NCBI GenBank assembly: GCA_013151635.1
Contig: JAADHV010000001.1
Span: 1 to 64,000 of the forward strand
Length of the DNA stretch: 64,000 nucleotides
Origin: Deltaproteobacteria bacterium
Lineage (GTDB): Bacteria > Desulfobacterota > Desulfobacteria > Desulfobacterales > Desulfobacteraceae
Reading direction: 5' to 3'
Part shown: positions 42,725 to 55,620 of the stretch, in pieces
How positions within the stretch are numbered: position 1 is the first letter of the stretch
How the letters are laid out: each line of letters opens with the position of its first letter
Translations under genes and position numbers: made by a program
Notes under the pieces: model-generated
The model's database searches: none
What the model saw: only the letters and a program-made list of their open reading frames with translations
What the model was told of the DNA's origin: nothing

Positions 42725-42807
42725 ATTTTAGTCTCTTATCATTCAATAGTATTAACAACATTTTGTCAATTTATTTTATCGAGCAGAAGTGTTATACAGA
42801 CAGTGAA

Positions 42808-44082
42808 ATGGAAAATAAAAAAAAACAATTATCGTTAAGGAAACAGGTTTTCCAGGGGAATATATTAGCTTTTGGCCTGGTCAGCTTTTTTACCGATCTT
42901 TCAACCGAGATGATTTATCCGCTTTTACCTGTTTTTTTCAGCGGATTTGTGTCCACGGCTGCCGTGGCAATATATATCGGTTTTATGGAGGGTTTGTCTG
43001 AGAGTACGGCCAGCCTGCTAAAGTTTTACACAGGCCGTCTCAGCGACAGGCTTGAACGTCGCAAACCCCTTGCCCTGGCCGGTTATGCGATCTCCAGCAC
43101 CATCCGGCCTTTTACTGCCATTGCCTCGGCAGGATGGCAGGTTGTGGCCTTTCGCGTATTTGACCGTATCGGGAAAGGCATCCGGACAGCACCGCGTGAT
43201 GCATTGCTATCTGAATCAGTCACCAGGAATGTCCGGGGACGGGCGTTCAGCTTTCATCGATTGATGGATCATGCCGGTGCAGTTGCCGGGCCGCTGGTGG
43301 CAGCAGGCTTTTTATACCTGATGCTGGGTCGCGGCATATTGTGGCATTACGGGAATCATGCGGCAACTCCTGCGGAGATGGAGGCATTGCGCTGGCTGTT
43401 TGCCCTGGCTGCCCTCCCGGGGCTTGCGGCAACCATTGTTTTGTGGCGGTTGATCCGGGAAACCCCTTGCCCGTCCAGGGCAGGGAATGTATCTAAAACC
43501 GGCCTTTCCAACCGGAAGTCCGGACTTCCCACGAGGTTTTTCATTTTTCTTATGGCAGTGGTATTGTTCACCCTTGGCAACAGTTCTGACCTGTTTTTAA
43601 TTTTTTATGCCCAGACCCGGTTCGGGCTTGGCCTTGGCTGGGTGATTGCCCTGTGGATACTGCTGCACCTGTCAAAAATTGTTTTCAGCATGCCAGGCGG
43701 TCATCTTGCGGACAGGATGGGGCGCAAGCCGGCCATTATTACAGGATGGGTCATTTATGCGGCGGTTTATATAATGATGCCTTTTGCTGCGCATTTCAAG
43801 GTGGTTTGTGTGCTGTTCCTTTTTTATGGCATTTATTACGGGATGACAGAAGGAGCCGAACGTGCCCTGGTGGCTGATTTTGTAACGGCAGGAAGCCTGG
43901 GAAAGGCGTATGGATGGTATCATTCCGCTGTTGGTTTTGCCACTCTTCCGGCAAGCCTGCTGTTTGGTGTTTTCTGGGCCGGGTTTGGCGCCAGGTCGGC
44001 TTTTTTTATCGGTGCCGCACTTGCGGCAGGGGCAGTACTGGTTTTTGCCTTTGGTTTGCCCGCCGGAAAGATGCAGGATTGA
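42808..44082 (+). CDS. MFS transporter
   Basis: 424 residues from the ATG at 42808; the frame is open upstream to a TTG at 42763, but that region lies in the intergenic space. About twelve membrane helices, with the MFS motif A-like loops GRLSDRLERRKPLALAG and GHLADRMGRKPAIITG in the two halves, and DRIGKGIRTAPRDALLS, the signature of a group of uncharacterised MFS proteins. Substrate unknown. It stands at the border between the envelope island and the glutaryl-CoA cluster. Confidence 0.9.
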   Translation: MENKKKQLSLRKQVFQGNILAFGLVSFFTDLSTEMIYPLLPVFFSGFVSTAAVAIYIGFMEGLSESTASLLKFYTGRLSDRLERRKPLALAGYAISSTIRPFTAIASAGWQVVAFRVFDRIGKGIRTAPRDALLSESVTRNVRGRAFSFHRLMDHAGAVAGPLVAAGFLYLMLGRGILWHYGNHAATPAEMEALRWLFALAALPGLAATIVLWRLIRETPCPSRAGNVSKTGLSNRKSGLPTRFFIFLMAVVLFTLGNSSDLFLIFYAQTRFGLGLGWVIALWILLHLSKIVFSMPGGHLADRMGRKPAIITGWVIYAAVYIMMPFAAHFKVVCVLFLFYGIYYGMTEGAERALVADFVTAGSLGKAYGWYHSAVGFATLPASLLFGVFWAGFGARSAFFIGAALAAGAVLVFAFGLPAGKMQD

Positions 44083-53001: not shown

Positions 53002-54075
53002 TTAATGGGAGTGGGCATGCTCTACAGGTTGCTTCAGGTTCAATGCCATATTAAAAATAATGAGCCCGCCAAGTATGGCTGCCGCAACTATCTGGATGCT
53101 CTCGGGAAAAATTTTGGATGCCTGCCCGACCACAGCACTTGCCTGCACACCCAGTGTGTCATAAACAAAGTCAAGAAAAAAGCCCATGGCAAGGGAAGTA
53201 ATGGAAATCATGGACAGGTAGATGGCAAGCGCCCTTGTATTGAAGATGTTTTTGACAATGTTTATAGTGGCGGCATTGGTGGCAGGGCCGGCCAGTAAAA
53301 ATACCAGTGCTGCGCCCGGGTTCAGCCCTTTGAGTATCAAGGCTGCGGCAATTGGTGTTGAGGATGTGGCACAGACATACATTGGAATTCCGGTAATAAG
53401 CATTACAAGCATGGATAAGAACCTGTGATCACTGGCCCAGACTGTCAGGTCATCCGGGAAATAGAAGGTAATGATACCTGCAATTAAAATCCCGATCATA
53501 AAGGGCTTTGCAATATCTGCCAGTAATTCGCCATAGGCGTATTTAATGCCGGTTATGAGTTTTGCAGGCAGGGTTAGATTGTCTTTTGGTGCAACTGCAC
53601 TATTTGATGCACACCCTCAGCCGCCGGCTGTTTTTATCGGTTCAGGCTTTATATTGGTTTTATCATTGCCCAGAAAGTTCTGGGCAATACCTGTGGAAAT
53701 TGCGGTAATAAACCCTGCAACAGGCCGGAGCAAAGTCATGATAGGGTCAAGCATGGCCCAGGAGATGGCAATTGAATCCACGCCGGATTCGGGTGTGGCA
53801 ATCATAAAGGATAAGGCGGCCCCGTCATTGGCCCCCTGTTTTTTCAGGCTTGTGGCAACGGGGACAACGCCACAGGAGCATAAGGGGATGGGGATGCCGA
53901 AGAGCGCAGCTAAAATGACCGATTTTATTTTACCTGTTCCAAGGTATTGTTTTATCTTGTCTGCTTTGAAAAATACGTAGAGAATCCCTGCAACAAAAAA
54001 TCCAAATAACATATAAATCGCTGAATCCAGGTAAATCTGCCATGATGCCTTTAAAATTTCATATATAATTGCCAT
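53002..54075 (-). CDS. SO_0444/YraQ-type permease, probable selenoprotein with in-frame UGA (Sec153)
   Basis: A single reading frame of 357 residues from the ATG at 54075 to 53002 is interrupted by one TGA at 53617-53619. The codons on both sides stay in the same frame without another stop (KTAGG-U-GCASNSAV ... LLADIAKPFMIG), and the two parts are the N- and C-halves of one COG0701 permease. The N half has the metal-type motif PLCSCG (Cys66, Cys68), the C half YVCATSSTP. The UGA sits in the linker where relatives have cysteine-rich sequence, giving a UGC redox pair. A SECIS-like hairpin follows the UGA. ArsR control suggests metal or metalloid export. Confidence 0.8.
53589..53600 (-). promoter_or_regulatory. 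Bacterial SECIS-like hairpin downstream of the in-frame UGA
   Basis: In the mRNA, GUGC-AGUU-GCAC starts 17 bases after the UGA; the four-base loop begins at base 21. A short stem whose loop has a G in its first two bases, placed 16-37 bases after the UGA, is the published bacterial SECIS pattern. The stem has only four to five pairs, so the support is moderate. Confidence 0.5.
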
Positions 54076-54095: not shown

Positions 54096-54440
54096 TTAAT
54101 GTCTTACGTGGTCAAGACTCATTTTAATCAAAGAGACGACGTGGTCGTCATCAAGGGAGTAGTAAATTATTTTACCTTCCCGGCGGTTTTTTAAAATTTT
54201 CAATGTCCTTAAAATCCGAAGCTGGTGGGAAATGGCTGAATCTGTCTGGTTGCAGATAACAGCAATGTCACAAACACAATGTTCCTGATTTAAAAGCGCA
54301 AGAACTATTTTAAGTCTTGTGGGATCACTCAAGGCTTTAAAAATCTCAGCCATCTGCCCGACATTTTCCTGCCGGGGGATAGTTTTGATGGTTTCCATTA
54401 CTTTTTTTTCATTAATACATTTTTCGCCGCATATATCCAT
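54096..54440 (-). CDS. ArsR/SmtB-family metal-responsive repressor
   Basis: 114 residues. Winged helix with ALSDPTRLKIVLALL, the metal-binding type motif HCVCD at the end of helix 3, and recognition helix NQTDSAISHQLRIL. The N-terminus adds a CGEKC pair that could contribute ligands, as in CadC. GGGGTG precedes the ATG at 54440. It is followed after 20 bases by the permease gene, which it presumably controls, and has a canonical operator 14 bases upstream. Confidence 0.93.
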   Translation of the reverse strand: MDICGEKCINEKKVMETIKTIPRQENVGQMAEIFKALSDPTRLKIVLALLNQEHCVCDIAVICNQTDSAISHQLRILRTLKILKNRREGKIIYYSLDDDHVVSLIKMSLDHVRH

Positions 54441-54516: not shown

Positions 54517-55620
54517 TTATTCCTTCAGGATTTTATTCATGACTTTTTGCGCATCCAGTATGGCAGTATAAATCAGGTTCGGATGCTTTTTTTCCTTGAT
54601 GATGCCATCTGAAGCGATTTCCATGTAAGAGGGGCTTATAGCACCGCCAAGAGCATAAATGCCGTTCTTGCCGGTTTCAAGATGATCGGAAAGCATGAGC
54701 AGACGCTCTCCTTCTCTGGCTATTTTACAGATCGCCCCTGTGCAGGTGATCTGCTGAAGATTCAGCTTATCAAAAATAGCGGAAGGGCCGTGGGTGCCGA
54801 TACAGGCAATAACATTTTTCATGGGAAAGCTCATTCCCTGGTACAGGTATAAATCATCTCCAAGGCCGGAAGATGTGGCCTGATGGATATAAAGCCTGTC
54901 AATTCCGTCAGCATCGACCTCACCTATTTTTGGTATGGCTTTTTGCAAAATTTTAATATGCCCGCCCAAAAGAACTTCCTCCCCCAGGTCCCGTGCCGTG
55001 TCTTTGTTGATTTCAAATGTTTCTTTAATGTGTGCCCAATAGACAGACGTGTCATCTCCCACAGCTTCCCGTTTGATTTTGGAAAGGGAAGAGACAACAT
55101 CTGCTGCTGCATTGCCGCCACCGATCACAAGAACGTTAATGCCGATATAATCTTCACCGTTCTCAATGTTCCTGGCAACGGTTTTGGCTTCGCCGTATAT
55201 CCCGAGATCATTAGGAATATTGCTGCCAAATGCGAGTATGATGTTCCGGGTTAAATAAGACCCTTGATTTGTTTTCACGATATAGTCAGGGAAAGTTCCG
55301 TCGATTTCCTTGAATTCTTCATTAAAATGGATTTTAAGATCATTCCGGTCCATAACGGTTTGAGCCTGTTCTACATATTTTTCAACCGGAATTTTTTCAT
55401 CCGGCGGTTTGATTTCAAGGACAGGGAAAGGGTCTTTATAACTTTTGGGTATGGTGGGGTAAACTTTTTTCCCTCTGGGATAAGTGTCAATGATGCCTTG
55501 CATTGCATGGCTTCCCTTTTCGAGGATAACAAATGATTTTGACTGCTGTTTTGCAAGAAGCCCTGCAGCAATTCCCCCAGGGCCTGATCCGATAATGATC
55601 ATATCAAGTTTCAAAGGCAT
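54517..55620 (-). CDS. NAD(P)/FAD-dependent oxidoreductase (thioredoxin reductase/YpdA-like fold)
   Basis: 367 residues. FAD-binding IIIGSGPGGIAAGLLA at about 8-23, a second dinucleotide site VLVIGGGNAAADVVSSL near 165-180, and a C-terminal FAD segment GIYALGGAISPSYMEIA. There is no CXXC disulfide pair, so it is not a classic thioredoxin reductase; YpdA-like bacillithiol reductases and ferredoxin reductases have this form. It is on the same strand upstream of the arsR-permease genes, but the ArsR operator lies between, so it is probably a separate unit. Substrate unknown. Confidence 0.8.
   Translation of the reverse strand: MPLKLDMIIIGSGPGGIAAGLLAKQQSKSFVILEKGSHAMQGIIDTYPRGKKVYPTIPKSYKDPFPVLEIKPPDEKIPVEKYVEQAQTVMDRNDLKIHFNEEFKEIDGTFPDYIVKTNQGSYLTRNIILAFGSNIPNDLGIYGEAKTVARNIENGEDYIGINVLVIGGGNAAADVVSSLSKIKREAVGDDTSVYWAHIKETFEINKDTARDLGEEVLLGGHIKILQKAIPKIGEVDADGIDRLYIHQATSSGLGDDLYLYQGMSFPMKNVIACIGTHGPSAIFDKLNLQQITCTGAICKIAREGERLLMLSDHLETGKNGIYALGGAISPSYMEIASDGIIKEKKHPNLIYTAILDAQKVMNKILKE

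Follow-up and report, generated by a model that had tools for sequence, protein, structure and literature searches.

A UGA codon very probably read as selenocysteine in the linker of an SO_0444-family permease from a Desulfobacteraceae bacterium

Main finding

A permease gene of the SO_0444 family in a Desulfobacteraceae genome contains one in-frame UGA, at codon 153, which very probably specifies selenocysteine (Sec). The gene lies in the window, that is, the stretch of 64,000 nucleotides analysed here (contig JAADHV010000001.1, positions 1 to 64,000). The Sec reading draws on the open frame, the family to which the protein belongs, the exchange of Sec and Cys codons among relatives, the selection acting on the gene, a downstream hairpin, the Sec machinery of the genome and the operon neighbour.

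The permease gene and its in-frame UGA codon

The permease ORF is encoded on the minus strand, starting with an ATG at 54075 and closing with a stop codon that ends at 53002, and comprises 357 residues when the TGA is translated. The sequence-only reading had described two same-frame halves parted by one TGA, and this description holds, the TGA at codon 153 being the sole in-frame stop inside the frame. The following features of the gene are referred to below.

53002..54075, minus strand: SO_0444-family (Pfam ArsP_1) permease gene, 357 residues with UGA as a residue (from the frame, PF03773 and NF033936)
53617..53619, minus strand: in-frame UGA, codon 153, very probably read as selenocysteine; the linker site, motif G-G-U-G-C (from the frame and the clade)
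53872..53880, minus strand: codons 66-68, the conserved C-S-C of PLCSC; the first codon is TGC here and UGA elsewhere (site 66) (from the alignment)
53371..53373, minus strand: codon 235, the invariant Cys of the second half, motif YVCA (from the alignment)

On the whole permease frame, PF03773 (ArsP_1) scored 161.8 bits, above its gathering score, and NF033936 (SO_0444 family Cu/Zn efflux transporter) scored 376.8 bits over residues 11-340, above the NCBIfam cut-off of 300. ArsP proteins, which are methylarsenite permeases, share PF03773 with the window permease, whereas the curated equivalog match of the window permease is to the Cu/Zn branch and its neighbour resembles SmtB and cadmium-operon repressors. 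SaoE, a member of a selenocysteine-assisted organometal system, is also homologous, with its model NF040736 giving 174.8 bits on the permease, well under the curated cut-off of 325. The closest named relatives are metagenome-assembled genomes (MAGs) titled Desulfobacula.

The C-S-C of PLCSC (U counted as C) is invariant in 41 aligned members, and Cys 235 is a possible partner ligand. The predicted model of the permease has a mean pLDDT of 84.6, with residues 148-161, in the linker, under 50. A PDB sequence search with the permease yielded no convincing relative (the best match, at E 0.021, was a leucine-rich repeat) and Foldseek with the predicted model had no hit at E ≤0.001, which left the protein without an assigned fold. 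Rfam at gathering thresholds had no match anywhere in the window, and PADLOC gave none.

Exchange of Sec and Cys at codon 153

Relatives were gathered from 38 loci on named contigs and from loci in further genomes. For the tree and the stop counts, 144 of 159 distinct sequences were kept, the window included, 11 having been dropped for identities below 36% and four (L076, L077, L136 and L201) for lengths below 280 residues; column 66 and the linker were masked in the tree. The window falls in a 49-row clade with an SH-aLRT of 100 (quick method). In this clade, the window included, codon 153 is TGA in 40 members, TGT in five and TGC in four, and nothing else. Homologues thus carry either Cys or an in-frame UGA at residue 153, as a Sec reading predicts, and the earlier claim that U-G-C stands where relatives carry Cys is borne out. 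Cys or UGA at the same codon of homologues, one of the marks by which bacterial selenoproteins are recognized, is therefore found here. The Cys forms are scattered through the clade (L049/L052; L061 and L074; L063; L075/L078/L180/L181), and the linker state changes at least eight times on the whole 144-sequence tree, a count that does not separate gains from losses.

The internal stops of the 144 sequences comprise 70 TGA, no TAA and no TAG, and 69 of the 70 TGA codons occupy one of two sites, the PLCSC Cys in 22 cases and the linker in 47. The remaining one, at residue 302 of L088, is at neither site and lies in a stretch beyond the match; since that stretch no longer resembles the family, this TGA looks like a frameshift artefact. 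Among the short sequences dropped, the distant homologue L136 (genome G383, 38% identity) has an internal TAA. A few genomes were flagged differently at different stages: G457 has one TGA in one search, and one TGA plus one TAA over a longer match; G452 and G466 were flagged with two TGA codons each, and their fetched loci (L173 and L184) have one each inside the gene; G429 was flagged with one, and its fetched locus (L162) has none inside the gene.

The Cys two residues after U is absent in two of the 40 UGA-bearing clade members (L057 and L064), so the second motif residue is not universal. Outside the window's clade, a linker UGA occurs in the context GCGU in L028, L040, L080 and L081; further contexts are SUGG (L173 and L174), TUA (L039 and L253) and GGUGC (L254).

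A SECIS-like hairpin downstream of the UGA

A hairpin beginning 17 bases past the UGA and carrying a G in its loop had been pointed out from the sequence, and it is indeed present (53600..53589).

53589..53600, minus strand: SECIS-like hairpin GUGC-AGUU-GCAC, with the loop G at base 22 after the UGA (weak alone, kept in the family)

Taken by itself, the window hairpin has four pairs, folding z values of -0.42 to -0.76 over three stretches and a synonymous-codon p of 0.098; the support that it lends is weak for the window sequence alone and comes from the family. When a hairpin is defined by a G within the first two loop bases, 19 to 25 bases after the UGA, one with a 3- or 4-base loop is found in 46 of 48 distinct linker-UGA sequences (L076 being counted among them), and L028 and L039 form one only with a 5-base loop. 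The mean score of the 48 was 15.67 versus 7.04 for synonymous recodings, with none of 500 recoded sets scoring as high, although only part of the single sequences reached p ≤0.05 in this test. Eleven hand-picked Cys-form controls scored 4.45 versus 4.10 (191 of 500 as high) and hence showed no excess; related sequences in these comparisons are not independent.

The stem-loop GUGC-AGUU-GCAC is shared by the window and many of its Desulfobacula relatives. Elsewhere the letters of the stem vary and the pairing is kept, as in CACCUGC-GGU-GCAGGUG, CGCCUGC-GGU-GCAGGCG and GGAUGC-AGGU-GCAUCC, and also in GGAUAC-AGUU-GUAUCC and GCCGGGG-GUU-CCCCGGC, with pair changes on both sides of the stem. Shuffling of the stem arms gave 0 of 2000 for both linker sets, which is supportive only, as the registers had been chosen for pairing. 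The hairpin is kept across the linker-UGA family beyond the needs of the protein, and a loop-G hairpin closely downstream, another mark of bacterial selenoproteins, is found at the level of the family. Among the Cys forms, a stem still scores in L049 and L052, where the loop has six bases, and L074 retains the AGUU hairpin; such remnants are as expected of a recent change to Cys.

Selenocysteine machinery

A search of the window genome for the sel genes found the complete set, namely selA (530.1 bits, above cut-off), selB (356.8 bits, cut-off 242.25), selD (347.5 bits, cut-off 125) and tRNA-Sec, or selC (76.5 bits, gathering 47, anticodon tca). The tRNA-Sec model is not specific alone, passing its cut-off in five of 14 control genomes, and selA was detected in two of the 14. 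As to selB, it scored above cut-off in 52 of 58 UGA-bearing genomes and in 21 of 22 Cys-form genomes; being present in both, it is compatible with Sec and not discriminating. The six UGA-bearing genomes without selB above cut-off (G427, G439, G470, G473, G593 and G580) are assemblies of 110 to 1270 contigs, three of them less than 82% complete, whereas the completeness ratings of G473, G580 and G593 are 93 to 100%. Cys-form genomes such as G448, G425, G458 and G423 keep selB, so the Cys form there is not tied to the loss of selB.

The selD of the window genome (G000:C2:34729-35658, L215) is itself a UGA gene, with an in-frame TGA in the context CGUAAK, and a different contig carries a further selD-like match, partial and with a TGA (G000:C32:40694-41146, L217).

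In summary of the above, the Sec reading proposed from the sequence gains support from the Cys/UGA column, the family-level hairpin and the complete sel set. UGA is generally a leaky stop codon, and readthrough with another amino acid such as Trp, or a regulated termination point at codon 153, was considered as an alternative. We regard this as very improbable, given that the residues replacing UGA in the clade are solely Cys and never Trp, and that the codon is accompanied by a SECIS-like hairpin and a complete sel machinery. Nor does a reassignment of TGA seem likely: when all six frames of the 64 kb were scanned for a TGA with at least 60 stop-free codons to either side and a Cys no more than four residues away, two places emerged, the permease and position 43875. 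The TGA at 43875 lies in another frame, inside the ORF at 42763-44082 on the plus strand, and looks like a chance occurrence.

Selection on both sides of the UGA

Compared with eight close relatives, dN/dS was 0.07 to 0.21 after the UGA and 0.07 to 0.13 before it, the latter being computable for seven of the eight. When nine relatives were pooled, pN/pS was 0.17 for residues 1-152, 0.51 for the linker residues 154-168, 0.23 for residues 169-192 and 0.21 for residues 193-357. The codons downstream of the UGA are under purifying selection. The linker segment 154-168 appears loosely constrained, and its low pLDDT suggests the same.

These values bear on the possibility that the UGA is a nonsense mutation or a sequencing error in an ordinary Cys permease. 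The assembly is fragmented (136 contigs) and the branch leading to the window, with a length of 0.17, is longer than those of most of its nearest neighbours, both of which could be taken to favour such an error. However, selection persists past the UGA, and UGA, never TAA or TAG, occupies the same codon in 40 of the 49 clade members across many assemblies, some of them in a single contig (G415 and G449, for example). As a general explanation, mutation or error is already excluded by the shared UGA, and we consider it extremely improbable for the window permease.

Termination at codon 153 followed by restart at an internal ATG, giving two half-transporters, could appeal to the in-frame ATG at 53499 and to the invariant Cys motif in each half (66-68; 235). 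We consider it extremely improbable, as no Shine-Dalgarno-like stretch was seen by eye just upstream of that ATG (in agreement with the sequence-only reading, which had found it to lack a ribosome site). A start there would also leave residues 169-192 untranslated even though they are constrained like the rest, which argues against an internal start, and clade members with a codon other than UGA at 153 all have Cys. Pseudogene, split gene and Trp readthrough were rejected on the shared UGA/Cys column, the downstream selection, the hairpin and the sel genes. Genes of this kind may nevertheless risk annotation as two fragments or as a pseudogene.

A second Sec position in a catalogued selenoprotein family

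Table 1 of a 2026 review lists the SO_0444 family Cu/Zn efflux transporter (NF033936) as a UxC selenoprotein with one Sec, represented by WP_014809615.1 and with GenBank annotation as the source of the entry; the review places the family among transporter-related selenoproteins, mostly implicated in metal/metalloid resistance (PMC13188914). The novelty that had been suggested for this permease family is thus wrong at the family level. The U-G-C at residues 153-155 of the window permease agrees with the listed 'one Sec, UxC', and so does PLUSC (U-S-C), the form that PLCSC takes in other family members with UGA at residue 66, its first Cys.

The position of Sec in the listed representative can be approached through genome G488. 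Of its second contig, 12 kb are 100% identical to plasmid NC_018026.1, which identifies G488 as Desulfomonile tiedjei DSM 6799. The proteins of this plasmid include a run from WP_014813301 onward, so WP_014809615 plausibly belongs to the accession run of the D. tiedjei genome. The sole strong family match in G488, at 2.10 of 6.50 Mb, has a single UGA at residue 66. From the accession order and this sole strong match, we infer that the listed representative carries its Sec at PLCSC and not in the linker. The window permease, scoring above the NF033936 cut-off, shares this family with the listed selenoprotein form, and both have one Sec with a Cys two residues on, whereas the D. tiedjei gene has its UGA at column 66 (PLUSC), where the window has TGC, its own UGA being in the linker at 153. 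The window permease would then represent a second Sec position in an already catalogued selenoprotein family. In the literature searched, subscription papers excepted, no description of the linker Sec site or of two-Sec forms was found; RefSeq may already contain such proteins.

Column 66 reads TGA in 22 of the 144 sequences and is a Cys codon in the remaining 122. UGA is found at site 66 only in 17 sequences, in the linker only in 42, at both sites in five and at neither in 80. In an order-wide search, 40 further loci had UGA at site 66 in 29 cases, in the linker in two and at neither in nine; these loci had been chosen as 31 flagged with TGA and nine without. Because sequences were chosen for their similarity to the window and in part for containing TGA, none of these counts represents a natural frequency. 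Site 66 changes at least ten times on the tree. The hairpin recurs here: after the site-66 UGA, the mean score was 15.95 versus 6.83 for recodings (n = 22), with 0 of 500 as high, and one of the 22 sequences (L188) has no such hairpin. Site-66 Cys controls, 30 drawn at random from 119, showed no excess (202 of 500 as high). The five distinct sequences with UGA at both sites (L039, L071, L072, L170 and L171) have a hairpin after each UGA and are apparently two-Sec transporters.

Taken together, at least two different candidate metal-ligand Cys residues, one in PLCSC and one in the linker, may each have been exchanged with Sec several times, with a few lineages using Sec at both; this view is tentative, and we hold it with a little less than even confidence. 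If it is true and the residues form a relay, the family would comprise metal pumps of the membrane in which selenium serves as a ligand in capture, in translocation or in both steps. Discussions of Sec usually concern soluble redox enzymes. In this family it would stand at two candidate metal-ligand positions in a membrane exporter, with Cys forms close on the tree, and such a natural Sec/Cys series would make the contribution of selenium to soft-metal transport directly testable.

Neighbouring genes and proposed function

Two genes upstream of the permease are relevant to its function.

54096..54440, minus strand: ArsR/SmtB-family repressor gene with CVCD and DxH(10)HxxH, 20 bases upstream of the permease
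54517..55620, minus strand: FAD-dependent oxidoreductase (Pyr_redox_3, partial YpdA similarity), upstream of the arsR-permease pair

The link of the permease to an ArsR regulator, also proposed by the sequence-only reading, holds: of 50 relatives, 38 have an ArsR-type gene upstream of the permease, and some of the others have too little flanking sequence. Within the clade, the repressor stands beside 36 of the 48 other members, with CxCD in all 36 and DxH(10)HxxH in 35 of them. We take CVCD and DxH(10)HxxH to mark the metal sites known as alpha-3 and alpha-5. The best PDB sequence matches of the window repressor include Lmo1102, SmtB, CzrA and cadmium efflux accessory (CadC) repressors.

SO_0444 of Shewanella oneidensis MR-1, which gives the family its name, is required under ZnSO4 or CuCl2 stress and likewise lies in an operon with a metal-responsive regulator (PMC3219624). 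That regulator is described there as ZntR-like, whereas the window regulator is ArsR/SmtB-like. In addition, a family member of Nitratiruptor is one of the genes that Cd and Cu strongly induce (PMC10092412). Soft-metal export is the best guess for the window permease on account of this Zn/Cu requirement, the Cd/Cu induction and the SmtB/CadC-like repressor, and by analogy a Cu/Zn (soft-metal) efflux activity is likely.

We propose that UGA 153 is decoded as Sec by SelB and tRNA-Sec, aided by the downstream hairpin, and that the product would be one 357-residue membrane protein, a selenoprotein form of the SO_0444-family soft-metal efflux permease. The SmtB/CadC-related repressor probably ceases to repress once levels of Zn, Cd, Pb or a comparable soft metal increase. 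The Sec-Gly-Cys in the flexible linker that joins the two halves would most likely be a high-affinity ligand pair for soft metals (or a redox pair), and this linker pair would load the core Cys-Ser-Cys motif. In its details, this transport mechanism has about even chances of being correct; the substrate, the membrane side and the hand-over step are what we infer, as is actual Sec insertion, which we hold to be very probable. A cytoplasmic linker is plausible, the charge of residues 134-172 (five K/R and three D/E) fitting that side only weakly.

A redox role of Sec-Gly-Cys is perhaps also conceivable, possibly in conjunction with the FAD-dependent oxidoreductase, which is a possible electron donor and candidate operon member. 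The YpdA model scored 73.4 bits on this protein against a cut-off of 339.9, and 12 of 50 relatives at over 70% identity also have the oxidoreductase upstream of their permease.
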